Origin: Saccoglossus kowalevskii
Lineage: Eukaryota; Hemichordata; Enteropneusta; Harrimaniidae
Assembly (NCBI RefSeq): GCF_000003605.2
Contig: NW_003112969.1
Coordinates: forward strand, 348,554 to 374,080
DNA length: 25,527 nt
Reading direction: 5' to 3'
Positions 4,510-25,527 of the stretch are shown one piece after another. The number at the start of each line of letters is the position of its first letter. Within the stretch, counting starts at the first letter, position 1. The translations under genes were made by a program, and so were the position numbers. Under the pieces are notes generated by a model that did no database searches, had not been told where the DNA came from, and worked only from the letters and a program-made list of their open reading frames with translations.

Positions 4510-4990
4510 TTGACAGGTGGCTAAGTGTCAGTATCCTTTATTTTATGTGTTTGTCATATTACCTGAAACCCTGAAAATGGAAGTGTGCATGGAATTATGG
4601 GAAGAAACGGTGTGCATTGCCATGTGATAAGTGTCATAAAGGTGATTGACAGGTCATACTTGTTTTCAACTCTGGAAGGGCAGTGGAATCTACCAGGTGT
4701 GCTTGTGATTTACATAACAAAGGGTGTTTATAACTTTGGAAGGAGAATTCAAATCTACCAGGTGTGCTGTTATTTGAATAACAAAGAATGTTTATGATCT
4801 ACTGAGTTGCCTATGTGACACAGCTGCTAGCAAGATCACATTCTGATTGGCTCATGTGGAAACCCAGGTGGTGTCACTGAATCGTGCCTATAACCATCGT
4901 TCTTTGAGACTTGTATGAACTGCTCTGCAATCTTCTGCTTTCAGCGGTGCACAGAATACCAGCGTTCCCCTGCAAGCAAGACTCCTGTAT
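4510..4990 (+). repeat. Repeat family D, copy 2
   Basis: Inverted partner of 1-420. It may extend to the right past 4990, but the corresponding part of copy 1 lies outside the window. An open frame on the minus strand (4874-5083, 69 residues, starting at TTG rather than ATG) covers its right side. The equivalent frame in copy 1 shares only a short run (QESCLQ-NA) before diverging, so coding status is doubtful. Confidence 0.8.
4668..4795 (+). repeat. Two tandem 64-bp units
   Basis: Units 4668-4731 and 4732-4795 are equal in length and align end to end. Each runs from AACTCTGGAAGG or AACTTTGGAAGG, through ATCTACCAGGTGTGCT, to AACAAAG-TGTTTAT. D copy 1 has only one recognisable unit (about 190-265), so the duplication is specific to copy 2 or was lost from copy 1. 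Confidence 0.8.
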
Positions 4991-5469: not shown

Positions 5470-6400
5470 TCACAGCAGGGTGATGTTTGATTATGCTAGG
5501 AAAAACAATAAATATATAATGACAGTCTGAATAAAGATGATTAGAAAAATAAGCGCTCCGTCAATTTGGACTGAAATTAGGGTGACCCCGTTGATTTTAA
5601 AAACTAACCCGTTTTTAACAACTGATTTAGCTCACCATACGACCAACCATTACCTTCAATCAGTATTTCATGCATGTAGCACTCAGATCAAGGACGACAA
5701 ACGCAGCAGGTAATCCACTTGGAAAAGTGCGTTAACATCTATTTCAGTGTTTATTATTCTGTTCAAAAGTTGTGACTGTATACTACTCCGAGCGAAACGG
5801 TGGATATTGTTATCGTATCAATCTTGTGACCTTTCACAAGTGTACATGTTATTGACGTTTGTTCTTTGGGAGGTTCACAACAATGAATATTGTAGTCTAG
5901 TGCCATTTCTGAAGAAAAAAGTCCCTGCCAAAGGAGCAAGAGGCATATTTAGGGTAAAAGTTGGGAACCAGACTTTTTAGCATATTTTGGTCATGCTGAA
6001 TCCGGTTCCAAAGCGATATTTTGAATGTGTAATAGTAATATACAAAAATGGCCGCCAAAATTCCAATTTTCTGCGATACGAATTTGACAAATGAAATGCC
6101 TCTACCTATGTTTTCTTATTATTATTAATATTAAGCCATGTTAATGGAATTAGATTTACATAATCTTTCTAAATTAGCCGCCACAACTTTTTCCCTATAA
6201 ATATTTTGGGCATGTTGAATCGAATAAACCTGGTTCCCAAGTGGTTTTTTGAATTTTGATTTTTTTTCTGCAATATCTTTGTAACTAGACAAGCGAATAT
6301 AACAAATAAAATGTTTTCAGGTTCACAGAGCATTATAACATTTTTAATGGAATTAGATTTATATAACCTTTATACGGAAAACCCGTTTCCCCTTTAAACA
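5470..6400 (+). repeat. Repeat family B, copy 2, right part
   Basis: This aligns with the reverse complement of about 1835-2520 and directly with 18063-18500. Strong blocks are the GTATACTACTCCGAGCGAAAC block near 5778-5799, the TCTTGTGAC block near 5822, and the AACTAGACAAGCGAATATAAC block near 6282-6303. A 77-residue open frame at 5747-5980 is not preserved in the other copies and is rejected as a gene. The homology fades after about 6400, so this copy lacks the end seen in copies 1 and 3. Confidence 0.8.
5982..6390 (+). repeat. Tandem duplication inside B copy 2
   Basis: Unit 1 (about 5982-6200) and unit 2 (about 6201-6390) share an ordered set of blocks: ATATTTTGG-CATG-TGAATC, then GGTTCC-AA, then TTTTGAAT, TTCTGC, ACAAAT-AAATG, and TTAATGGAATTAGATTTA. 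B copy 3 has a single unit (about 18265-18475), so this is a local duplication. Confidence 0.7.
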
Positions 6401-7239: not shown

Positions 7240-8070
7240 TTTACGTGTTTAGACAAGCATTCGTGTGGACGTCTTGGTGATAAGCAATGTCTGTTATGGT
7301 ACGTCGGCTGCGCTGGCCATTTACCAATCGTACAAGGGGCTGCCTTTGTCCCCGCTCGACGGTAACGTTGTTGCCGCTTGTGACGGCGTGAACATGGTTT
7401 TAACCACGAACCTATATGTTTTGACGAATATTTTTACCGATATCGATTTTATATATTTAACGTCACCTTGACAGTGAAATATGGGTACGCTACTACACTA
7501 TGAGTACTAGGCCAAATCTTCACCTCATGATGACCTGCTACGATAACAAGCCGGAATTTTCACGTGATGGTCTGTTTTGAAAATAATTCTTTGTATGGGA
7601 CCAGGGCGCAGAGGAAATACAACAGGACGCTGACAAAATAGACAGCGCTTTAATTTCAGAAAGCAGGGCTCGTGAAGAACCCTGGAGAATTTGGCGACGA
7701 CTCGGAACGTTGTCGCTGTCTTTTGCCGTCAAATGTTTTTGAAACTCGCGGCATACTGAAGTCTGGGACTGAAGTAAACCGAGCCTCAAATAAAACGAAC
7801 GAAAAACGAAGGCAGTTGAAAAAACTTTACATGAGTATGAAAAACTCTCGATAAATCGAGTTGTAACAGTAACGAAACAGCGACCGATGTCCTGTTCTTA
7901 TGCCGATGTTCTCAATAACTGATTTTGAAGTTGTTAGGCTAAACAAATGTGCTAAACACGAAATAATCGCCCCGAAGTGAGAATTCACAATTGTCTCGTT
8001 TTCTCAGTGTTTGTTTCCGGAGCACATCGATGTGAATGATCGAACATGACGTCGTTCCGGCCACCGCCAC
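7240..8070. other. CpG-denser patch, possible regulatory or exonic DNA
   Basis: CpG dinucleotides are conspicuously more frequent here than in the flanks, for example around 7260-7400, 7680-7860 and 7960-8060, where CG pairs fall every 10-20 bases. Open frames at 7265-7471 (plus) and 7672-7854 (plus) begin at GTG and have no upstream in-frame ATG. I recognise no product. A TGACGTCG site (CRE-like) lies near 8047. This could be an old promoter or exon of a host gene, or a younger insertion not yet depleted of CpG. Confidence 0.3.
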
Positions 8071-8754
8071 TAAGTTGTGATTTGAATGCATAGATTCTAT
8101 AAGTAAGCTTCATTTCCGTATTTTAATTTTGACTGAATCATGCGGCACTTTTTCACTGTTGTTGCGCAAAAACGGACTACATACTCATAAAAACGCAAGA
8201 TGTTGGAAATATGAATCTTTTAGTCAGGAAAAAAAAAATAAAAAAAAAATACAGGATTACATTTCAAGACCTCCTTTCTACGATAGTGTGACTTTCGGGG
8301 TCACTGTCACCATACTTGCCAATAAATCTCGCTACATTAAAGATAACGCATAAGTGATTAGTCATGCCAGTTTAGAGCTTTGTTAGGTTATATTATTAAC
8401 ATGATCAAAGGTCAAATGTGTTGCTATAGAGAAAAGTAACAAACATACCTCTAAATCCACCATGAATATAACAGTGTCTGCAGACAGAACGCTTCTCCTG
8501 AAATAGGATTTACTTGCAGCGTCTAAAATTGTCCACGTTGATCTTGTTGGCAGGTATTATTAGAACAACTGCTATGATGATACAGGGTAAGCTAAAATAG
8601 TTTTCAGTAATCCCATACGCCCACAGTTATTCATATAACACGCCATCCTGTAATATAGCCTTGATATCCGCCTACTCACTTATTTGAATATATATCAAAT
8701 GTTTGAGATCGTCAAGTGATTTCATTGACCACCTTGTAATTGTAGAAATGTGCA
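8071..8754. other. No gene seen; short poly-A tracts
   Basis: Two A-runs separated by a single T lie at about 8229-8249. An A-run like this can be the relic of a retroposed tail, but I see no matching element body on its left side and no flanking duplication. The rest of the stretch shows nothing I can name. Confidence 0.35.
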
Positions 8755-10752
8755 AATTATTTTTATCTAGTTTAAAGTATGTGTATATAGTTCATGTAAA
8801 TAGATGTAATTTTCACCTTGGATTTTTTTCCAAAATATTACCTGTACAAATATTTATTTTTAAATTCCATCTTTTTTCAAGACTTTCTATAGCCAACTAT
8901 CTTATGACATTTTTTTTAAACGGAACCATATTCCATTTTGAAACTACGTGGCATCACAATTGCCTTATGCCACTTTAATGGGCGTCTTCAAGACCACTTC
9001 AAACACAAACGCCTACGGTGATTAAATAAAAAATAATAAGGCTTGCGAAGTTGCTCCCATTTTTGAATAATACTTGGTCAGTTACTTTGATTTAGTATCC
9101 CCATTACAACAGAAGTGTCAATTTTTGAATTACAGTTATTTTTGAATTGGTCAACAACGACCAAGGTAGATGGTCATTATAAACTGTAACATTAAGTTAC
9201 TGTGTTGTTTCGTTTTGTTTATGTTGCTATGGGAAGGGGTCAAAGGTCAGAATCCTTCCAGTTCATGAACCACTATTAGTTGGACTTCACTCTAAAATAG
9301 TCAGGAGGCAAATAAATAAAGGGCTACTGGACGTGTACACGAGTCCGGGCGTTAAGGGGAAGGTTTTCTGCACTGTGCCAAATGAAATGTTTCATGTTCA
9401 TGGTTTACCTGCTTTACCCCTGTTCGAATCTAAGTGCATACATACACAAATATTAAGCTAGTTGATATTTTTGCAGCACAATGTCTATGTGGACGTTGGT
9501 GGGAAGCTTGGTAGACACAGTTATACCACGTATCATTTTATTCATTATTCGACTTAGTCATTATTGGATATTTATGTATTAAATTTATATTAAGAGGCTC
9601 TATATTTCAGATCAGTTTCTATTTCGTTCTTGCATAGTTTAGCTGCAAATTATTACACATCCATACATGGCACCTACATCATGTGTAAACTAGCGTTCTC
9701 AGTGAGAACTGCTTCTTGCAAACAACAATGCATCTCTACATAGACGTCCGCCATGTTTTGATACTCACTTTAACAGCCTAAATGTACCAATCCGCTAATA
9801 TCCATGAGAAGGTAAAACATAATAAAAGCAGCCAGCTTTTGAAATTACAATGCAACATTGCAGTGAAGCAATACATTATATCCAGCCATTATACAGCAAA
9901 CCAATTCCCTTTGATACACTTATTATCAAAGGGGAAACTATAGCTGGCCAAGCCTACAATTCATAGGTGTGACAGGTCTAAGTACACGGCATGGACGCTA
10001 AAAACAAATTGAGGGCAGTATACATATTCATAATAACTTCTGGTATATCTTGTTGCATATTCCTGAGTACCTGATTATTTTTTGTTATAATTATGTATAT
10101 ATAAATTAATAAAAAAATGTTTGTGTTGGAAGGTAAAAATGTTATTTTGGCCTGATAATTATGACATACTGGATTGTAATTTTCGTACCTGTGCAAACAA
10201 GTTCTGGTTGTACGTTATATTGTTAATATTGCTTCTCATCAGGTGGTAGCATATAATTTATCCCACACAATCACAAAGTGTGTACGTTCATAGATATGTT
10301 TAATATATTGAAGTTCTTGGGTTTAACTGGTTATTATAGTCATTTGGTACTATGTATTTCCATATTTAGTCTACTAGCTCCCATATTAATGTTTCAAAAA
10401 CACTTGGTTGCGGAATTTTTCAACATTTCATTACGTTGTATATAAAAGGAGATGTGGTGAACAATTTCGGGTTTACCAAAATATTTTTCGATGTTGGCTA
10501 TTTTGTCCAGTTTGAAACTTCTGTGTTATTGGTTCTCATGATAACGGCATTGTTTCATACCTTATATATTTTGATATTGCGACTGATATAATGAGTGTGG
10601 TTACCTTTATTTTTGAAAACCACAGGGTTTTAGATTGAAATAATTTTAATTGAAATAATTCTGAAATAATATTTAAATAATAGCATTTTCGTAAATGTAT
10701 ATATATTTATGTTTTAGGTATAGTCTATTTTTTCAAGCGTCATTAGTCGATG
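8755..10752 (+). repeat. Repeat family A, copy 1 (left and right parts adjoining)
   Basis: The left part (8755 to about 10175) aligns directly with 19908-20873. Shared blocks include GAAACTACGTGGCATCACAA, the ACAAACGCCTACGGTGATTAA run, the GAGTCCGGGCGTTAAGGG run, the CATCTCTACATAGA-GTCCGCCATG run, and ATATCCATGAGAAGGTAAAA. The right part (about 10372-10752) aligns with 25196-25527 (CTAGCTCCCA-ATTAATGTTTC, TTGAAATAATTCTGAAAT, ATATTTAAATAATA-TAGCATTT). About 200 bases separate the two parts here, against about 4.3 kb in copy 2. No protein frame is apparent in this copy. Ends and class are unknown, and no terminal inverted repeats were found. Confidence 0.85.
9907..9933. repeat. Perfect 10-bp stem hairpin
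   Basis: Arms CCCTTTGATA and TATCAAAGGG surround a 7-base loop. It sits in A copy 1 at a place where copy 2 has no counterpart (around 20755-20790), so it is either lost from copy 2 or private to copy 1. Confidence 0.6.
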
Positions 10753-11916
10753 TCGGTTACATATTGGATGAATAACATTCACCTGGTTTTCTGAAAAAGC
10801 TGTAAACCCAGTTATGTGGTCTGTGGCAGAATAAACATGCGATCAGATAATCGTTGCAGCCATTGACTTAATATAATTTATAAATAATGTATTTATGAAA
10901 TCCCCGTAATATATTTATAATATCCACCCTAAACATGCAAGTCGATGTGCACACATGACATCATTATGGTAACACATTTCACAAATTTGGAGCTGTCCCT
11001 TAGCTCAGGTGGAAGATCTATAATAACAAAATATTACCGAGTTGCATATGTCCCTCCCGTTTACTGAAAAAAAATGTGTCTTGGGACGGATTGGTGTACA
11101 AACAGCAAAAACCTAAACTTTACACCTCCTTGCATTTATCAATTGGGTTTTTATAGGACCTGTTTGCATTAAGATGATAATAACAATGTACAAAACATAA
11201 CTGTGACGATAGCAGGCAAGTGACAGCAAATAACATCCATGAACTCACTTGTAAAACCATGAAACATCCTAGCAAACAATGGGCTTCCCAAGAGAATCAC
11301 TAATATATTTTCTCAAGTCAAATACAAAATTATAATTTCATCCCTTCATATGAAAAATAGAGTATGTATTAAGTTCATGTCAACATGCCTTTTAGGGCAC
11401 GATGAAACCAAATTCTTCATCGCCACGTGGCAGTGATTCAATTTATTATACGAAACTTTAAGAGCATTTCTGGCACAAATTTATGGTATAGACATAAATG
11501 TCACAATTATTTTTGATGTCTGCAGTTATTATGCTTTTTGTCAATCGCCACACCTGTGCACCATGATTGTCAAGCTAAACAAGATGGTCTAAAACAACAT
11601 CAGATTAGACAACATGCACAATGTTGTTAGACAATTTGGCACCCATACTGCACCAAATTTGACAAAAACATGAACTCAACGTTATAATGAATAATGTGAT
11701 AATTCAATGTGGTTCTATTAAACTTTTGTTGATGAAAAATCATAAAATAGTACAAATATGTAGCATGTCAGTTTTTTTTGCTGGAGGAGAAATATATGTA
11801 TTCAAATAAAGCGTTTACAACATATTTTGAGATTTCTAATTCTAAGAAGTAGAATGTTTTCATGATTGGTGAAGTTAGGAATTATATATTGAATTAAGAT
11901 AAATATATATATTGTA

Positions 11917-14612: not shown

Positions 14613-17028
14613 ATGTGTATTCTGTATAATCAATACTGGAGGAAACATATAACGGACAAATTACCGAACTTATCGACAGAATACGTGTCCTATAAATTGC
14701 AGAGTCATTTTTTTGGTCACCTAAACGTCGGAAATGGTCGAATGTGGTATGAAATATCTAGTTCAATTTCTCAATTACAAGTATTTGGTGAGTGATACTG
14801 TTTAAAAATTGTTTTTGAAAGACAATTCGTCACTTTAATTTGTCTCTGAATCTAAACCTCTGTACAAGGAAATATGTAAGACGCCATCTTGTGAATTTTG
14901 TATTGTCGTTTCCTAAGATTTTTTTTATAACAGTACTTTTTCTTACATGTCATCAAGTCGGCAAACCTAATGCCACTTCAAGTCACCTGTTTTCAAAATA
15001 TTTTGACTGTTATTTGTTTGTGATTTCTACTGATTCTACATTCCTGAGAATTCGTATAGACCGGGGAATCGACACCCGCTACAGATTTATGAATCCTAGA
15101 TTGTATAATTTGTAGTTGGAAAAGTCCAATAATAAATAAGGAAATTTTGAATATATGTTTTTCGTTCAAATGTCCATATACATACATACATGACAATAAA
15201 CACGTGGATATATATTTAAAATTTTCCATTATGAGTCAACGTAGCATGATCTTGTTAGTCATTATGAGTGGGTGTGTTATTTTCTAAGCCAATGTTTATG
15301 TACACCTACAGGTTTTATAGTTTATCCCGTGTGTTTACAAATGAGACAACGTTCTTTACCGATCAAATCGACATTTTCGAACAAATCTCTACCCGTCAAC
15401 ATAAAATATACGCTACCATCTTGTTTTGGACGGATTAATAAACAAAACGTCATTTCGCTGCGTTAAACTAGCTTTCGGCAAGCTTCCAGTGCTCTAGGTT
15501 CATTTTCAGCGACAAATTGGGTATTTATGGTCGCCAGATTGGTAGATCTACGTTTCGGCTAATTACGATCATGGAAACTGTATGAAAACTTTCCTGGGGT
15601 ATTTAAAACTAAAAATTGGCATTCCAGCTCAGCAGCCAATCAGCGACGGCCTAACGCTTAGATGACAATTTCGGTTTCAAACACCCCGGCTTAGTGTTCT
15701 AGGTTCTTCGCGTAATTAGGTTTTCATATGCAAGGGATTTTTCCACACAAAAACGACGAATTAGGCCGAATTTTGTTATCGGTTGGTTTAATATAACCCC
15801 AACGGACCGTATTTTTGTCCTGATTTGTAGGAATTTGAAAAAAAGGCGTTTCACAACTTGTTCCTAATTTAGTTTAATACGTCATTCAAGATGGCGGCCT
15901 CCATATAATAAATATCGTATTTATGTTATTATCACGTGTGCGCCAGCTGAGTGTGGTTATACTTAAAACTGGATATGTAAACGAAAATAATATATCTATT
16001 TACAACATATATGGGCCGGTTCTGTTTGGACAAAAACTAATCTTGAACAGTAAACCGTGGTGTCTGGCACATAAATATACATACTCAATTAATTGACATT
16101 TCTGTCACTAACAGTGACTATTGAGGAAAAACATACACATGTTTTTAACACGTTTTAACGGCGGAGCACAGTGTGTGAAAAAAATAGTTAAATAAATATT
16201 TTTTTATTTCCATTTTATACCTTATGGTATAGATGCAGGGGCGTGGGCAATCTGAGTGATTTTTTTATTATGCTTTTTTCTACCTAGATTGTATTGTTAA
16301 AATTTCGAAGCTTTGTCAATAGGAAACATACTCAAAAACGATTTTAAAATATATAGAAACCGAGGAACGCGCATGCGATTAAAAGTCCCGAAAGTTTGTT
16401 TACGTTGCTCTTTGATTGACAAGTCACTGTTGATGATATATGCAAATGAGTTACTGGCCTTACTACTAGGCGGCGGTGTGTGACTGCATGTCCTGGCTAC
16501 ATTTTTACTTACCTCAAGCGCGATCAACTAGCCTCACTCTTATCTCGCAAACTTCTAGCGTGGCAGCTTTTAGTGGTATACTGTGAAATAGTTTGATTTT
16601 TATTTATTTTCATATAGAATGAAGGCCCGAAACAAGGTCACAATTTTTTCTCTGGTGGTATAGATTTCATGCTTTTTTGCATTGTGGACAAAACTAAAAA
16701 AAGGCATTATAACAGTGAAGTAAACGATTTTCGTTTCGCTGTAACAATCACCGTGCTGATAGCATTGCGATGCAATTGATAAACGCCACTGCTGTTACTA
16801 TCATCGATAACTAACTTTTTCAGTGTCAAAATACACAAACATAAAATCATCTGATAATTGAAATTAAAAAAAAAATACCATGAAAATTATAGCAAAATCG
16901 GCAACGATATGCTGTTTTAAATACCACGGACAAATTAGGCACCCCTATTGTCTCCTAGCATGCACCGGTTGCGATGTAACAAAGTATGTTGTGTGGCGTG
17001 CTCGGTGACCTCTATTAATAAAGTATTT
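14613..17028. other. Mostly unassigned; promoter-like hints
   Basis: No repeat partner and no recognised protein were found. The short open frames at 14840-15115 and 15272-15466 lack motifs. A CAAGATGGCGGC site (YY1-like) lies near 15888-15899. CGCGCATGCG, close to the NRF-1 consensus, is at 16368-16377, and a strong GAG|GTAAGT splice donor reads on the minus strand at 16512/16513. A short motif, AGTG-TCTAGGTTC, occurs twice about 203 bases apart (near 15489 and 15692). Confidence 0.35.
16513..16600 (-). other. Possible non-coding first exon ending in a strong splice donor
   Basis: On the minus strand the sequence reads CGCTTGAG|GTAAGTAAAAA, a near-ideal 5' splice site with the exon end at 16513. 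The upstream bases have stops in all readings I tried and no ATG, so any exon would be untranslated. The NRF-1-like site lies about 140 bases on the intron side. One strong donor alone occurs often by chance, so support is weak. Confidence 0.15.
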
Positions 17029-17572: not shown

Positions 17573-18062
17573 CAATCAGGTTTCAAGAAGGTGCAATCCT
17601 ATGAGACCGCCCTTGCTAAGATGACATCCCAATGGGCTACCAATATGGACAAGGGATTGGCCCTTCTTGATTACGCAAGGCCTTGAACATGATCAATCAT
17701 GATCTTTTATTACACAAATTATCTTTGAATAGGTAAGTGACCAATCACTACGGTGATTCAAATCCTATTTAACGGCCAGGTCACAATCTGTTAATTTAAG
17801 AGAGCTACATCTGAGAACTTGTGCAGCAAAACTGGGCTCGGACATGGCTAATGTAGAAGCGTGGTGTAAAACTAACAAGATGATCATAAATAGTGAGAAA
17901 AATAAAACAATATTAGTTACAACTTCTCAAAAATATCAAAAGTTACTTGTTAAATTGGAACACGTAAAGTCAGAAAGACTACTTGGTGTTATGGTAGATC
18001 AAAATCTGACACGGAAAGATCATATTAATAAAGTTCAAAAAATAGTGAGTATGCTTCTAGAG
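17573..18062 (+). pseudogene. Non-LTR retrotransposon reverse transcriptase fragment (CR1/Jockey-like)
   Basis: Three frames must be joined to follow the protein. 17573 to about 17675 gives QSGFKK, then ETAL, then LALLDY, matching the family's 'QSGFR...TAL...LDLSKAFD' region with the motif-A aspartate kept. After a frameshift, about 17679-17733 gives KALNMINHDLLLHKL. After another shift, 17757 to 18062 gives FKSYLTARSQSVN, then WCKTNKMIIN, KTILVTT, LLGVMVDQNLT, DHINKV. A TGA (17754-17756) sits where the conserved Trp of 'WF.SYL' is expected. The segment carrying the catalytic F-x-D-D motif is absent: SQSVN runs almost directly into LGSDMANVEAWC, implying an internal deletion. There is no endonuclease domain upstream. 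The fragment ends abruptly where repeat B copy 3 begins. It is clearly dead. Confidence 0.85.
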
Positions 18063-18790
18063 TATGTATACTACTCCGAGCGAAACACTGTATATTGTTA
18101 TCGTATCAATCTTGTGACAATTTACAAGTGTACATGTTATTGACTTTGTTCGTTGGGAGGTTCACAACAATGAACATTATTGGCTAGTACCATTTCTGAA
18201 AAAAAGTATCTCCCTCAGAAGCAAGAGGCATATTTAGGGTAAAAGTTGGGAACCAGACTTTTTGGGCATGCTGAATCCGATGAACCTGGTTCCAAAGCGA
18301 TATTTTGAATTTGAAATAGTCATAAACAAATTGGCCGCCAAATTTCCAATTCTCTGCAACATATTTGTAACTAGACACGCGTATATTACAAATGAAATGT
18401 TTCTATTTATGTTTTTAGGGTCTGATAATAATATTAAGACATTTTAATGGAATTACATGTACATAATCTTCATAAATAAACCGCCATTACGTTTTCCCCC
18501 TTTACAAATGAAGAATCTAATCCAGATTTTCAGGCTCGGGGAATTTGATAAACAAGATAACAGATGCTATATTATGCTAATTAACTGCCGTAATTCATAA
18601 TTTACATATACGCTATCAATGTTTGGTTCCAAACTGATTTCTACTAAAAAGTCATCGAAATATTGGCAAAGCAAGCTGTTTCTTGGGTTCCCTTGTATTC
18701 AAATATGGATCATCAGTCTGGTGCTGACATGCATACATTGCTGTGCATTTATAATGCTTGCTGCATCAACTATATCTGATTTCTGCACAT
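18063..18790 (+). repeat. Repeat family B, copy 3 (left-truncated)
   Basis: Starts at the GTATACTACTCCGAGCGAAAC block that also occurs at about 5778, and runs to the GCTTGCTGCATCAACT block that matches 1504-1520 inverted. It lacks the first third of B, and the reverse transcriptase fragment abuts it instead. Open frames at 18262-18447 and 18619-18894 follow the repeat and are not called as genes. A short frame (FLGFPCI, then SLVLTC) is open in both copy 1 and copy 3, but this follows from nucleotide similarity. Confidence 0.8.
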
Positions 18791-19690: not shown

Positions 19691-19907
19691 AAATCATGCG
19701 TAATAGCAGTGAGATGTGATACATTAAAATATAAACATAAATTATAAACTAGCAGGAAATAAAGCCACAGTGCATCTGCAAAGATACTAGTATATCATTT
19801 AAAAACTAGAATAAATAACTCAATTGTCACCAATCCAACAGCAATAAGGGAGATGTAATTAGAATACTTGATAAAAAGTCATACAAGGCAACAGTGTAAT
19901 AAAGTAC

Positions 19908-20873
19908 AAATTATGTTTTATCTAGTTTAAAGTATGTTTAGATAGTTCATTCAAATAGATGTAATTTTCACCTTGGATTTTTCCCAAAATATTCCCAGTA
20001 CAAATATTTGTTTTTAAATTCCATCACTTTTCACCACTTTATATAGTCAACCCTCTAATGAATTTTTTTAACGGAACCATACTCCTTTTTGAAACTACGT
20101 GGCATCACAATTGCCTATGCCACTCTAATGGGAGTCTTCTAGACCACTTCAAACACAAACGCCTACGGTGATTAACTAAGGTTTGCGAAGTTGCTCCCAT
20201 TTTTGAATAATACTTGGTCAGTCACTTTAATTCAGCATCCTCATTGTGTCTTTAGCACCCTCAGCTATAAAAGGAGTGTCAATTTTTGAATTCAGTATTC
20301 TGATCATCGATCAGCAATTCAACAACGACTAAGTTAGGTGGTCTACGTTTATAAACTGTAACTTTAAGTTACTGTGTTGTTTTGTTTATGTTGCTATGGG
20401 ATGAGGTCAAAGGTCAGAATCCTTCCAATTTATGAACCACGATTAGTTGGACTAAGATATTCAGGAGACAAATAAATAAATATCTACTGGACGTGTACGA
20501 GTCCGGGCGTTAAGGGAGGGTCTTCTTCTAAATTTATATTTAGAGACTATATATTTCAGATCAGTTTCTACATGGCACCTACATTATGGGTAAATTAGCT
20601 TTCCCAGGGAGAACTACTTTTTGCAAACAACAATGCATCTCTACATAGAAGTCCGCCATGTTTTGACACTCGCTTTCTTGTGCTAATATCCATGAGAAGG
20701 TAAAAAATAATAAAAGCAGCCTGCTTTTGAAATTACAATGCAGTAAACCAATACATTATATCCAGTTATTTTATAACAAACTAATGCCCACACTAATGTA
20801 TAGCCATTTAAAACTAAACGTCTGTGGTGAAAGGTGAAAATCTGTTCTTGGCCTGGTAAACATGACATACTAT
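19908..20873 (+). repeat. Repeat family A, copy 2, left part
   Basis: Aligns colinearly with 8755 to about 10175, with several indels. Copy 1 has about 250 extra bases near 9380-9590, and copy 2 has a private CTTTAGCACCCTCAGCTATA block near 20251-20271. The alignment runs to the ACATGACATACT / ATGACATACT block, then stops exactly where the foldback element starts at 20874. The right part of A reappears at 25196. Confidence 0.85.
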
Positions 20874-21060
20874 AACAAAACCCCACACCCTCCCTGTGGC
20901 TTTCGTTGCGTATGGAAGTTATTTTCAGTAGTGAAGCGGTGCATCCTGTGCCCGCACTTTCACAAGCGAAGCGAATAAAATTACAGCAGGTTACACCACA
21001 TCTCGATTAAAAATAACTTCTATACGCAACGAAACCACGGGGAGGGTGTGAGGTTCTGTT
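20874..21060. mobile_element. 187-bp foldback / MITE with 51-bp inverted repeats
   Basis: The left arm 20874-20925 and right arm 21010-21060 are inverted copies differing at four bases and one indel. Both carry CACACCCTCCC, then GTGG, TTTCGTTGCGTAT and GAAGTTATTTT. The 84-base centre is not coding. If the ends are read as ACAAAACC and GGTTCTGT, the flanks offer a TA on each side, as in Tc1/mariner-type insertions. A two-base duplication is weak evidence and the class is open. Confidence 0.75.
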
Positions 21061-22190
21061 ATTATTACATATGTTCCATAAAAGACTATCTCATATTAAA
21101 GAAAGAACGTGTAACAAACCGGGATGGAATTTTGGTCGGGGAACCACATTGCCCATTAATATGTTCTATAATAGTATTACGCCCTAGCAACGCGTGTCAT
21201 TGTAGAATGCGTGTCACTGTCTGCCACGGTGTGAAAATAAAATAATCAGATGTTTAATCTGAGTCACTGATCGAACAAATAACTCGTGGACGTTTAGTTG
21301 GGGCCACGACAGAACTTGAACTGAATGACTGTGATACACACTTTATGTTGATGTTAAAAGTACTAGTTCCTTCACAGAACTGTGCACAGGATGACTTTCG
21401 TCAACAACAGTCGTCGCTGAGCTGCACACTACAACTTCGTTTGTAGTGTTGTTTGCTGGTCATGGATTGAATGAGTCTTGGTTACTGGTTAACATTTGCT
21501 CGTTTAGCGTTGGTGATCTTTATTTGGAGCTGAGTAAGCCACAACGTTGCCAGCAGAAACTATCTGGTACTTCGATGTTGATGGTTGCGGCTCCACAGCA
21601 ATCGCTGACTTTACTGCGAGTGGAGCTTCCGAGAGCCCTTCAGGCTTTATAAAGCTCAGTTTCCAGGTGGTCAACATACAATAAATTTTCCCAATCGTAG
21701 TATTCCATGTGATGTAGACCTAATATGTTGCTGAACTATTTAAACCGAATAAAAATAGCAGACGATTTTTTTACATAATAAAAATTGTTCGGTAGCTAAT
21801 GGAAAAACCATGTTTAGTCATGGAGCCAAGACCCACTAATAGTCAAGAACCTGACACCATCTGCTATACTTTTTCTGACTATATTTTTATGTTTATGGAT
21901 ATTTTTTGTTTATGAAATGGGATGTTGGCAAGCTGAAACCTCTTGCGCAAATTTTTCATAGCTGTTTTGTAATAAGTGCCCCTGCCGAGATATAAAAATA
22001 CATCAACTAACTCAATGAATTATGCCAAGGAAGTGCTTAAATAATAGTAAACATGCTTTTATAACTTGTTGTTTGAATAGTGCAAAGTTAATATGAATAG
22101 CGCATGTGCATATTAATGAGCTAATTTGCATATTTTATAATTAATGTGTGCGATTTTCAAATAAACGTCGTTTAAAACTAACATCTCTTA
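21061..22190. other. Non-coding DNA between foldback and CXC pseudogene
   Basis: No repeat partner was found in the window. 21400-21660 is less AT-rich and contains a 12-bp palindromic TATA sequence, GCTTTATAAAGC (21644-21655). A plus-strand open frame there (21446-21652) starts at TTG and matches nothing known. An octamer-type ATTTGCAT lies near 22124-22132. This stretch would be the 3' flank of the minus-strand element carrying the CXC protein, but no terminal repeat was identified. Confidence 0.4.
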
Positions 22191-22196
22191 TTTATT
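22191..22196 (-). terminator. Candidate polyadenylation signal for the CXC gene
   Basis: AATAAA on the minus strand, 133 bases past the stop codon at 22329-22331. The position suits a 3' end signal, though AATAAA is common in AT-rich DNA. Confidence 0.35.
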
Positions 22197-22328
22197 CTAG
22201 GTTTAACTGATATTTTTGCAACTTTTAGAGCCAGAACTACAATTTTAGCAGCGAAGAAACAAAAATTATCACATATGTATTATCTATCACAATAAAACAA
22301 TAGCATATAGTTACAATTATAACACTGC

Positions 22329-22860
22329 TTAGCGGCTATCAGAATCAGAGTCTGAGCTTACAGCAACTTGTCCACATTTATCTGGGTCCCCTGTACATTT
22401 ACAAGCAACTATGCAGGAAATGTTAGCTCTAGCACAAGAACATCCTCGCAGACAGTGGGATTTCACACATTTGCAATATGTGAACTTTACAGTGCTAGGT
22501 TTACTCGGTTTTGTCATCATTACACAAACTAGCTTTCCGCTCTCCACAAAAAAACAACCAAAGTAATTATCGGGTGGCAAGTCTATATCTTGAAGCTCTC
22601 CGAAGGTTGTAGCTCCAAGCAGTTGATATTTTTGCACAAAGGCTATTGCATCAATGAGATAAACTGTTGAAAGCTCAGAGTCTGGTAATTCTGGATATCC
22701 CATCATTTCAGAATCATATTGTTTTTGCATTTGTGCAAAGAAATCTGCTTTAGTGCCTTTTCTCATTTTAAATCCATGTGAAGCTTTCTGATCTATGTCA
22801 AACCTAGCAGCTGAATGGTCCATTCATTCATATTTGAACGCTTCATGTTTCTGGTCTGTG
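22329..22860 (-). pseudogene. CXC protein fragment 6 (C-terminus with zinc-binding CXC domain)
   Basis: Starts with KHEAFKYE, an in-frame TGA (22824-22826), then MDHSAARFDIDQKA and GFKMRKGTKADFF, matching the family's 'YEL...P-LFD--G-MRK--K' pattern. Downstream are LPPDNYFGCFF and TKPSKPS, then the CXC domain at residues 117-150 counted from that Met. An Asp/Ser-repeat tail (SSDSDSDSR) ends at TAA 22329-22331. The downstream Met could start a short protein if translation re-initiated, but there is no sign of a separate promoter. Confidence 0.8.
22374..22475 (-). other. Tesmin/TSO1-like CXC zinc-binding domain
   Basis: Nine cysteines spaced C-x-C-x4-C-x3-C-x-C-x6-C-x3-C-x-C-x6-C, which is the TSO1/Tesmin CXC pattern. 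In LIN54/Tesmin proteins two such repeats bind DNA through zinc clusters; here there is one. All cysteines are intact despite the damage upstream. Confidence 0.85.
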
Positions 22861-23677
22861 TATTGTAAAAACAAAGCCTTCTTGTAACCACAGATTCATC
22901 TTGGTACATTTTCAACAAAAAACCTTTTGATTTGGTTGACTTTCTGTCTGTTAAAAATGTTACAATGTTTGGTGGTTCAATTTTAGACAAAATCTGTTCC
23001 TCTGCTTTTCTCATAGCTTCAATTCCGATTTTCTTTGCATTAACAACATCTGTGGACTTTGCTTTCATACCAGTTGCAATATTTATCAGATCATCCTTGT
23101 TTGTACAAGTAAATGGATTGATCATATCAGCATTATTACTGTTATTCATTTTTATAACAATGTTAAGTTCTTCAATGGATAAATTACTTGAATCACCATG
23201 ATGACTGGAAGTTGAATGTTGCATATTCCCCATTGATTTAATGCTTTCAGAAACTTTTGTCATTACCGGAGCAGATTTGATGTACTTCTCATGTCCACCA
23301 TGGTTCTGTGTTATTCCTTTCAGTAGAGACGTCTTTTCCTCTTTGTTGTATGTCTGCTCCAGGGCAAGGTCACTCCATACCCCATTGAAGATTCCTTCTG
23401 TAAAATCTCCTTCCAGAAATCTCTGGTGTACCTCAGGAAATTTGTGAGACAATTGTGTCATTTTATGGAGATATATAGGAAGGCATATCATATAATTTTG
23501 ATGTCTAGAGCTCACAATGAATGGGAGAATATTCTGCACCTTCTTTAAATGTTCCCTCCAGTTACTGGACCTCTCGGCATGAGTATACCGTCTGAGGATT
23601 AATACCATGTCTAAGTACATTTGCCAGAATCTGGCTGTTACATTTAATTGTTCCTCATATTCACTCCACGGTACCAT
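22793..23677 (-). pseudogene. CXC protein fragment 5 (W-x-D-x3-E region)
   Basis: An unbroken frame of 294 codons, which also extends a few codons upstream as ARL. It includes FWQMYLDMVLILRRYTHAER, then LPFIVSSRHQNYM with a hydrophobic helix-like stretch, and GVWSDLALEQ (residues 99-108), followed by a Gly-rich KGITQNHGG. In relatives this is 'W-DLAIEQ...GGLTRGRG'. Asp103 and Glu107 are kept and could be the last acidic residues of an RNase H-like active site, which is inference. The coding sense ends near 22855; the tail to 22793 is out of frame. Confidence 0.8.
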
Positions 23678-23685
23678 TAGTCTTG

Positions 23686-23925
23686 CAAGGTTTCTTTAAC
23701 TTCATGTAATTTAGTTGTAGAACCACTAGTGTCTTTTCTCTCCATACAGTTCAGCAGGTCGTTCACTTTGTCTGTCCTTATCCATTAACCACTCTTCAAA
23801 TGCTTCCCATTTCAACCTCATTATTGCTTCACTGACTAGCTAATGGCATTTCAACATTCGATGATAATCTTTTTCATTTAAGATCTTTTTAACCGTGCCC
23901 CTACCAAATATACCATTATTGAGTA
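23686..23925 (-). pseudogene. CXC protein fragment 4 (linker with stop and frameshifts)
   Basis: Pieced together from two frames. NNGIFGRGTVKKIL runs to MLKCH, then a TAG (23840-23842), then LVSEAIMRLKWEAFEEWL and ERPAELYGE in the same frame. After a shift near 23738 comes KDTSGSTTKLHEVKETLQD. The matching family region ('RA.R.H.L...AL..L') has a sense codon at the TAG, which is probably a point mutation. The reading returns to the next fragment's frame near 23685. Confidence 0.65.
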
Positions 23926-24676
23926 GAAACCACTGGCCTTCATAAAGAATTCAATAGAACCCATAAAATTCTCATCTATATGAAAACCCCTGAGTCGCAC
24001 TACAACATTGTCATATTTCTGATTTATTCCTTGCACAATATCATATATTGCTTGATCGCATGTTGCAACTGTGCATTCTTGACCCATTCTTGTTGTAAGA
24101 CTGGTGAAATAGTCCAGTAAAGTTTGAACAACCTCTGGATTTGTTGGAGACTCAGGGAATATTGATCCATATCCAATACTAGTTCTAGCAGATTTCTTAC
24201 CGATTTGTATCTCATAAAAGGAGTTCCATGCTGAGGGAGTGATTTCTCTAGTGTCATCTCCAAGTAACAACTGCCCTGTTCGTAGCATTCGCAGCAGATA
24301 CCAAACAATGTCATCACTGCACAGATCTGTGCCAGTTTCTGGGGAAAGGTCTGAATAGAGTAGTGGAATGTCGGAAAGAGATCTTGCTTCTCTTCTATCC
24401 TTCAACTTCATGCGGCATTCTGCAGGATGAAAATCAACAGGATCATGGAGTGTTGCTTTCCTGCCTTTTGGTAGAGACACCACGGGGAGATCAGAACTAT
24501 GTATCTCTCCAATATACTGGTATTTATTGTGCGTTGTAGTATTACCAAATCTATTGAACACTGTTAGTAGCTCCTTACTCCTCGTTTGCCTTAGTATGTG
24601 GAGTGCAAGACGTGCATGTGTTGGCATTGCAATGGAGGTGTTTACTGCCATGACATCCTGTGCCAAATTAAGGACC
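23878..24676 (-). pseudogene. CXC protein fragment 3 (core with DQAIY and GFH motifs)
   Basis: The longest clean core piece. From the first Met after AQ (numbered from MAQDVM) it holds the HILRQTRSKELLTVFNRFG block at about residues 23-41, TPSAWNSF near 143-150, TCDQAIYDIVQGI at 202-214, and VVVRLRGFHIDENFMGSI at 221-237. In relatives these read like 'TFDQPLY' and 'LGGFHT-MSFLG'. The Asp and His are kept, but the second Gly of 'GGFH' is preceded by Arg. A conserved D-N-x-D-containing stretch expected after residue 53 seems to be missing. Frame is lost after KASGFYSI; the next frame continues NNGIFGRGTVKKIL. Confidence 0.8.
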
Positions 24677-24945
24677 TTCCTTTTAGTTCATTTGTGAGAA
24701 ACACACTACCATCTGTCCCAGTTGTTGCTTCTGCACTGCTTACCATCCACGCAAGGTGGTTGTATAACTCTGCTGGCACACTTTTGTAGGCTTGTTCATA
24801 GGAAATGTCTAAATCATTTTCAGAAGTGGTAGATGACGTAATATCAACTTGTCGGCGTCTATCACTATGCTCTCTTGCTTTAGACTTAATAGCATTCCTC
24901 ATGTGTTTGGCTGATGCATAAGAGTCTGCCTTGACAGTTTGGATC
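24642..24945 (-). pseudogene. CXC protein fragment 2
   Basis: Continues fragment 1 in another frame: KADSYASAKHMRNAIKSK, a low-complexity Ser/Thr-rich linker, then KSVPAELYNHLAWMVS, a block typical of the family. It leaves frame near 24670, after LTNELKGRS, and the protein resumes one frame over as VLNLAQDVM. The open frame runs on to a stop at 24642 but is meaningless past that point. Confidence 0.75.
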
Positions 24946-25192
24946 TTTTTTGAATGCCTTCCTCGTCACAACGGGTATCAGAATCTGGAATCAGCTGTGT
25001 TTTATTAAGTTCTTGTTTTAACCTTGCTGTTATTGAACACAGTTTTTGATTTGTAATATAGGAAGCACATATCGGACTTGACATACCCTTCTGTGTCAAC
25101 ACCTGCACATCAGATGCAAAATGCTTCAAAATTCTCTGCTGCAGACTTTGACTTCTGTATGTATGTGCATTTTCTACACCATTTTCAGTATA
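24946..25192 (-). pseudogene. CXC protein fragment 1 (N-terminal side)
   Basis: Open from the repeat A junction at 25192 down to an A6 run. It begins TENGVENAHTYRSQSLQQ, followed by RILKHFASDVQVLTQKG and SPICASYITNQKL. In the family this block lies well inside the protein, so upstream residues are lost. No start codon is present before the conserved part. After the A6 run the protein continues in the next frame as KIQTVKADSYASAKHMR. Confidence 0.75.
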
Positions 25193-25195
25193 TTA

Positions 25196-25527
25196 CTACT
25201 AGCTCCCACATTAATGTTTCCCACATTAATGTTTCAAAAAACGTGTGTTATTTGTGTGGTTGTACAAATATATAAATGGAAATGTGGTGAACTTGGTATT
25301 TTACCATTTTTACCTTATATAATTTTGACAGTGTTTGATATGTTTCGATATTCAGACTGATATGTTGAGAGCGGTTACCTTAATATTTGAAAATCACGGC
25401 GTTTCAGATACAGTTTAAATTGAAATAATTCTGAAATGATATTTAAATAATAATAGCATTTCCGTAATTGTACATATATTCATGTTGTAAGTATAGTCAA
25501 ATTTTGACAATGGTCATGGGTAGATGT
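25196..25527 (+). repeat. Repeat family A, copy 2, right part (runs off right edge)
   Basis: Aligns with about 10372-10752 of A copy 1, from TACTAGCTCCCA-ATTAATGTTTC through GAAATAATTCTGAAAT-ATATTTAAATAATA to the last bases (GTCAT-G-AGATGT). The CACATTAATGTTTCC motif is duplicated at its start in this copy (about 25207-25236). It begins within a few bases of the point where the CXC frame opens. Confidence 0.85.

Follow-up and report, generated by a model that had tools for sequence, protein, structure and literature searches.

The locus described here raises the question whether a gene that lies between two parts of a repeat is the engine of that repeat, or whether it belongs to a different element with a history of its own. 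The stretch that was analysed, a window of 25,527 bases from the hemichordate Saccoglossus kowalevskii, forms the final part of contig C689 (NW_003112969.1; 374,080 bases) in a genome of 572 Mb. It is dense in repeats, has a GC content of about 30–42%, and contains a repeat, called A, in two copies, of which the second encloses a decayed gene for a protein ending in a CXC motif. A first-pass annotation had proposed that A is an autonomous transposon with the widespread CXC family as its transposase and copy 1 as an internally deleted derivative, or else that the two copies are an empty and an occupied site. The evidence makes it likely, in our judgement, that the CXC gene is the decayed transposase of a separate DNA transposon, probably an Academ element, which lies inside one copy of an old local duplication and is not the engine of A.

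The repeat itself is represented in the window by the following features.
8741 to 10753, forward strand: A copy 1, limited on the right only because copy 2 runs into the end of the contig.
9697 to 9941, forward strand: dispersed sub-repeat inside A copy 1, parts of which are matched by five other loci at 70–80%.
19895 to 20873, forward strand: left part of A copy 2.
25190 to 25527, forward strand: right part of A copy 2, reaching the contig end.

Alignment bears out the observation that the same two parts stand 200 bases apart in copy 1 (10173–10372) and about 4.3 kb apart in copy 2. The left parts match in three blocks, 8741–9369 with 19895–20526 at 81.0% (664 columns, E 6e-178), 9580–9621 with 20529–20570 at 92.9%, and 9664–9909 with 20569–20789 at 80.9%, and the right parts match at 79.4% (10564–10753 with 25338–25527). 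By eye, the left part extends to about 20873 in copy 2 and 10172 in copy 1, and the right part restarts at about 25190 and 10373, respectively. Some 200 bp of copy 1 (about 9910–10110) are absent from copy 2, so that the copies differ both ways. Since base 25527 of the window is base 374080, the final base of C689, the position 10752/25527 that had been taken as the right end of A is no true boundary. A search with 10740–11500 for a continuation of A revealed no second partner of A; apart from short matches, it picked up a common repeat of about 80 bp at 10866–10942, which is the source of most of the 41 other matches to that query.

If A were a mobile family, copies with common ends would be expected at other places in the genome. 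The right part (25196–25527) gave two matches, both within the window. A query from the left part (20200–20800) gave 16, of which four lie in the window (the query and three pieces of copy 1). The other 12 lie outside it and are all confined to about 20602–20795, i.e. to the sub-repeat, with no full copy elsewhere. These counts are lower bounds, but dispersed copies of full length would probably not have escaped the searches. With these two queries, no set of dispersed A copies with common ends was found, which rules out A as a multi-copy mobile family for the parts searched. Because no full copy was found outside the window, the most suitable reading of A is an old local duplication, at least about 2 kb long and about 81% alike, with a small dispersed repeat inside it.

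The DNA that separates the two parts of A in copy 2 consists of several pieces, the last of which carries the CXC gene.
20874 to 21060, no strand assigned: near-palindrome of 187 bp, resembling a miniature inverted-repeat transposable element (MITE), with an inverted identity of 74% over 191 columns and no match in copy 1.
21061 to 21814, no strand assigned: further insert DNA of about 750 bp, with no match in copy 1.
21815 to 25188, reverse strand: decayed and fragmentary DNA transposon of the CXC family, 88–93% identical to its relatives at loci L039 and L040.
21815 to 21955, no strand assigned: surviving terminal inverted repeat (TIR) of this transposon, beginning with TAGTCATGGAGCCAAG.

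A core piece of the CXC protein gave 71 matches in the genome, several of which are pieces of one copy. Close relatives of 21815–25188, L039 (contig C1913) and L040 (C3943), carry the element without A in the single readable flank of each. A DNA was found in none of the 33 CXC-family loci (about 27 distinct places, since six are contained in others), and no CXC piece lies within 1.5 kb of the A sub-repeat at any of its five loci. The best test is provided by locus L074, where both flanks are readable and contain no A. On contig C3044, locus L041, which lies between two matches to the A sub-repeat, has CXC-family pieces and no A DNA. The expected recurrence of the CXC gene at the same internal position of A was, in the 33 CXC loci and five sub-repeat loci, not seen; this comes close to the outcome that the first-pass annotation had itself named as pointing to a one-off insertion. 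The L039 DNA that adjoins the transposon end (L039:7522–7606) is a repeat, with a 91% copy at window positions 15873–15958.

That A is a transposon, with the CXC gene as its transposase and copy 1 as an internally deleted form, would account for a CXC fragment standing between two parts that match copy 1. It is nevertheless very improbable, because the right part of A occurs just twice in 572 Mb, the relatives of the gene lack A in their readable flanks, and the fragment has its own TIR beginning inside the insert at 21815, with its coding sequence cut at 25188. The part of the earlier proposal that makes the CXC family a transposase is supported by acidic motifs, a nuclease-like motif set, TIRs and 3-bp duplications; the assignment to A is not. 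The difference between the copies is better described as a nested and truncated insertion than as an internal deletion.

The boundaries of the CXC element can be recognized from its relatives. TAGTC-type termini were found in seven copies besides that of the window, and the terminal motif TAGTCA.GRAGCCA occurs in the window, L039, L040 and L047, at both ends of a copy on contig C1734, and 5' of the gene in L053/L054. L039 has the same end as the window at 21815, and L040 and L047 have the same terminal sequence inverted at the other end; over 114 columns, window positions 21847–21955 match the opposite end of L040 at 74.6%. When the genome was scanned for TAGTCANGGAGCCA, nine places were found, as compared to three for a reversed-pattern control. 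One of the nine is the window, three are L039, L040 and L047, and a fifth is the C1734 copy, which is diverged and has both ends. The other four are probably due to chance; this applies to L057, L062, L063 and L065, which were picked up with the terminal pattern and show no further likeness to the ends of the element.

Two other subfamilies were found by protein and not by motif. L053/L054 represent a distant one, with about 27–35% protein identity to L039 and TAGTCATGAAGCCAAG 5' of the gene. L074, the copy on contig C1732, belongs to a third; it has inverted arms at 1401–1583 and 7940–8112 (67% over 183 columns), with TAGTCC at both ends, 6702 bp apart, and the gene in between. The ends of the C1734 copy (L069 at 4379 and L059 at 1514) are 63% alike over 145 columns. 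Both copies that are readable at both ends are flanked by a perfect 3-bp target duplication, TAA in L074 and CTA in C1734; each such match has a chance of about 1 in 64, and the sample is small. The stretches beyond the absent ends of three other copies consist almost entirely of N, and at L075 (C2922), where the final 2 kb are N, no inverted ends were found. L074 combines the features of a TIR DNA transposon (class II, cut-and-paste kind), i.e. TIRs, a duplication of fixed length and an internal gene, and its coding pieces between the TIRs hold DN.D, FDQ and IEQ motifs in this order. The ends and target duplications that were to be defined for A were found for the CXC element instead. No CXC-family relative was confirmed in viral contigs.

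The predicted protein is best seen in L017, an open frame of 830 amino acids with ADNVDHN..DGKNTFHGMG, followed by TFDQPLWWKA and then by SDLVIEQ. The order of these acidic motifs is repeated in L074, and in L054 the first two are found by pattern (the second as VDQAIY), with the third position reading QTLEQ. Judged from their order, the three motifs may well supply the three acids of a DDD/E transposase. Behind this core, copies of the L017/L074 type have VFDGY...K, GDAD, DTDLL and CD..GIGK in order, and those of the L039/L054 type have HEEADTR, DTDV and GCDT..GIGKK-like motifs in a nuclease-like region. The order VFDGY..K, GDAD, DTDLL, CD..GIGK resembles that of the FEN/XPG nucleases. The CXC motif stands at the protein end in the window, L039 and L054, and is degraded in L074. 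Profile searches with the nuclease-like domain gave weak matches only (XPG_I_2, 0.16, and 5_3_exonuc_N, 0.13, each in one of eight members), which were outscored by the unrelated family MCP1_TM (0.00093); the PDB structure 2qip, annotated as a structure of unknown function, matched at 1.2, and two other queries turned up nothing relevant. PDB and Pfam searches with the core gave no significant match, and the suggested comparison of the conserved motifs with transposase profiles yielded nothing significant either.

A fuller copy of the transposon would measure about 6–7 kb, with TIRs of about 110–185 bp starting with TAGTC and 3-bp target duplications, and its product would comprise N-terminal Cys/His motifs, a three-acid core (DN.D, DQ, EQ), an XPG/PIN-like nuclease-like domain and the terminal CXC motif. 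Such an element may be expected to move by cut-and-paste, with the protein binding the TAGTC ends and cutting and rejoining DNA at a stagger of 3 bp. The trimming or resolution of intermediates could fall to the nuclease domain.

The nuclease of AcademX elements is XPG-like. The 3-bp duplications, the length of about 6.7 kb and the motif order, which includes a nuclease-like domain, give the CXC element a likeness to the Academ superfamily. As far as the accessible parts of the respective papers go, Academ is a DDD/E superfamily (PMC9587614) with a mean element length of 5565 bp in bivalves (PMC10294476), and target duplications are of 3 or 4 bp in AcademX and of 9 or 10 bp in AcademH, a difference tied to the encoded nuclease or helicase (PMC10045372). 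Duplications of the AcademX kind are present in the two copies mentioned above. The CXC element is, from these sequence features, probably an Academ of the AcademX lineage, and with that a further member of an already known kind of transposon.

Several points weigh against an independent, Academ-like CXC transposon. In both L039 and L040 one flank falls into a gap, and for most of the 33 CXC loci just 1.5 kb of flank were read. L053 and L054 remain alike for about 80 bp outward beyond the TAGTC motif, so that they do not prove a boundary there. The target duplication comes from two copies only, and in one of them, C1734, no coding part was found and there is an internal gap. The roughly 750 bp at 21061–21814 are left outside this account. 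None of the three places that the Pfam XPG_I model matches in the genome is a CXC copy, and neither a known DDE transposase nor XPG/FEN was matched significantly in any profile or database search. Finally, the likeness to Academ was judged from published descriptions only.

Another classification has to be considered, in which a three-acid core, an XPG/PIN-like nuclease and a CXC motif would define an undescribed superfamily distinct from Academ. The absence of a significant match to any Pfam transposase or nuclease family, the weak likeness to DUF6589 only, a domain without known function, and the lack of a name for the CXC protein in the accessible part of the literature searched would agree with this, but the nuclease and the 3 or 4 bp duplications reported for AcademX in the text available, as well as the length of Academ elements, fit the CXC element, and we consider such a new superfamily unlikely, if not negligibly so. 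Somewhat more doubtful still is the extended proposal of an undescribed superfamily of animal DNA transposons with TAGTC ends, 3-bp duplications and a large protein in which a three-acid core is joined to a FEN/XPG-like nuclease and to a DNA-binding CXC motif. DUF6589 proteins would be distant sisters of this superfamily, and many of the orphan CXC proteins in invertebrates would be its transposases.

Concerning DUF6589 (PF20231), weak matches were obtained with four of 15 pieces of the CXC family (best E 0.0039, not significant), and hhalign aligned the first motif with an E value of 0.029 and a probability of 1.7%. By eye, the DN, DQ, FH and acidic motifs follow a similar order in the DUF6589 open reading frames (ORFs) of the host. 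The longer CXC-family ORFs gave no DUF6589 match, and none of the 11 genome matches of the DUF6589 model coincides with any of the 71 CXC matches. The DUF6589 matches lie on C1075, C1306 and C1796 (L070–L073) as well as on other contigs, and the ORFs that were read have motifs resembling the acidic ones of the CXC family. The DUF6589 proteins of this genome may, from such motifs, be a sister transposase family; the literature search found no papers on DUF6589.

The C-terminal cysteine pattern also resembles the Tesmin/TSO1-like CXC domain (PF03638; Pfam E 0.087), although the score of 13.6 bits is below the curated cut-off of 23.5. Unlike in a tesmin-like host regulator, CXC is here a single short motif in a large transposon protein. 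In literature on tesmin/TSO1 and transposons, or on Academ and CXC or XPG, the CXC protein is not named in the portions of text available. CXC proteins of this kind are common as unnamed gene models in marine invertebrate genomes. The false link between the CXC gene and repeat A can now be replaced by a testable one, between the CXC gene and a TAGTC-ended transposon with 3-bp duplications. With known ends, annotators can drop such models from gene sets and assign them to the element, and the weak link to DUF6589 provides a lead on where cores of this type belong.

The state of the copy in the window can be read by comparison with L039 and L040.
22329 to 22823, reverse strand: C-terminal ORF, in which the CXC motif lies (Pfam TCR, E 0.087, under its cut-off).
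22489 to 22588, reverse strand: deletion junction, with about 98 bp in the window versus about 990 bp in L039, mostly coding for the nuclease-like domain.
22793 to 23695, reverse strand: ORF with a putative third acidic motif, SDLALEQ (23354–23374).
23878 to 24687, reverse strand: ORF with a putative second acidic motif, CDQAIYD (Asp codon at 24055–24057).
24534 to 24537, reverse strand: junction where about 153 bp of coding sequence were deleted and, with them, the first putative acidic motif (in L039 FDNLNF..DGK).
24899 to 25192, reverse strand: damaged 5' part of the coding sequence; in L039 and L040 the frame continues beyond 25188, whereas that of the window copy stops.

The net loss at the nuclease-like domain is about 890 bp relative to L039, and there are several frame breaks. 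The copy is dead, since it has lost its right end and two internal coding segments. A truncated 5' end and the absence of about 153 bp of L039/L040, which resembles a lost intron, might suggest a retro-copied (processed) pseudogene. The missing 153 bp are, however, coding and have no GT-AG ends, no poly(A) is present at 21815, and the 3' end is a TIR that is common to the opposite end of L040; a retro-copy was rejected on the grounds of the coding nature of the 153 bp and the TIR, and its probability is close to nil.

At the right junction, the window copy ends within coding sequence at 25188 and A restarts at about 25190. The right end of the transposon, together with some A DNA, was presumably lost after insertion. 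A tandem duplication of 15 bp (CCCACATTAATGTTT) lies beside this junction at 25206–25230, in copy 2 only. A scheme in which copy 1 stands for the clean, empty site and copy 2 became occupied through a single insertion of 4.3 kb has in its favour that the extra DNA is flanked by the two parts of A. It is quite unlikely all the same, as the extra DNA comprises at least three pieces, the right end of the transposon is absent, no target duplication was seen around the whole 4.3 kb, and copy 1 carries 200 bp of its own there, besides another difference of about 200 bp. The relation of the copies is more probably one of two unrelated things superposed, a duplication of A and insertions into copy 2. 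This copy would have received at least the MITE-like palindrome and a TIR DNA transposon with a CXC-ending gene, and the transposon would subsequently have lost its right end, some flanking A DNA and the two internal coding segments.

The window holds further repeats. A repeat B is present at 1504–2512, 5484–6395 and 18065–18771, with one copy inverted. Two of the B copies share the order and orientation of A, and the distances are comparable (12.3 and 11.2 kb); it is therefore possible that the A and B copies belong to a single larger old tandem duplication. An open frame of 128 amino acids at 17757–18143, to which Pfam gave no support, looks like the C-terminal part of a reverse transcriptase of a long interspersed nuclear element (LINE). 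Long inverted arms at 1–398 and 4533–4988, composed of four pairs of 40–125 nt that are 81–93% complementary and 4.1–4.9 kb apart, suggest a further TIR element, about 5 kb long, and locus L020 matches both arms.

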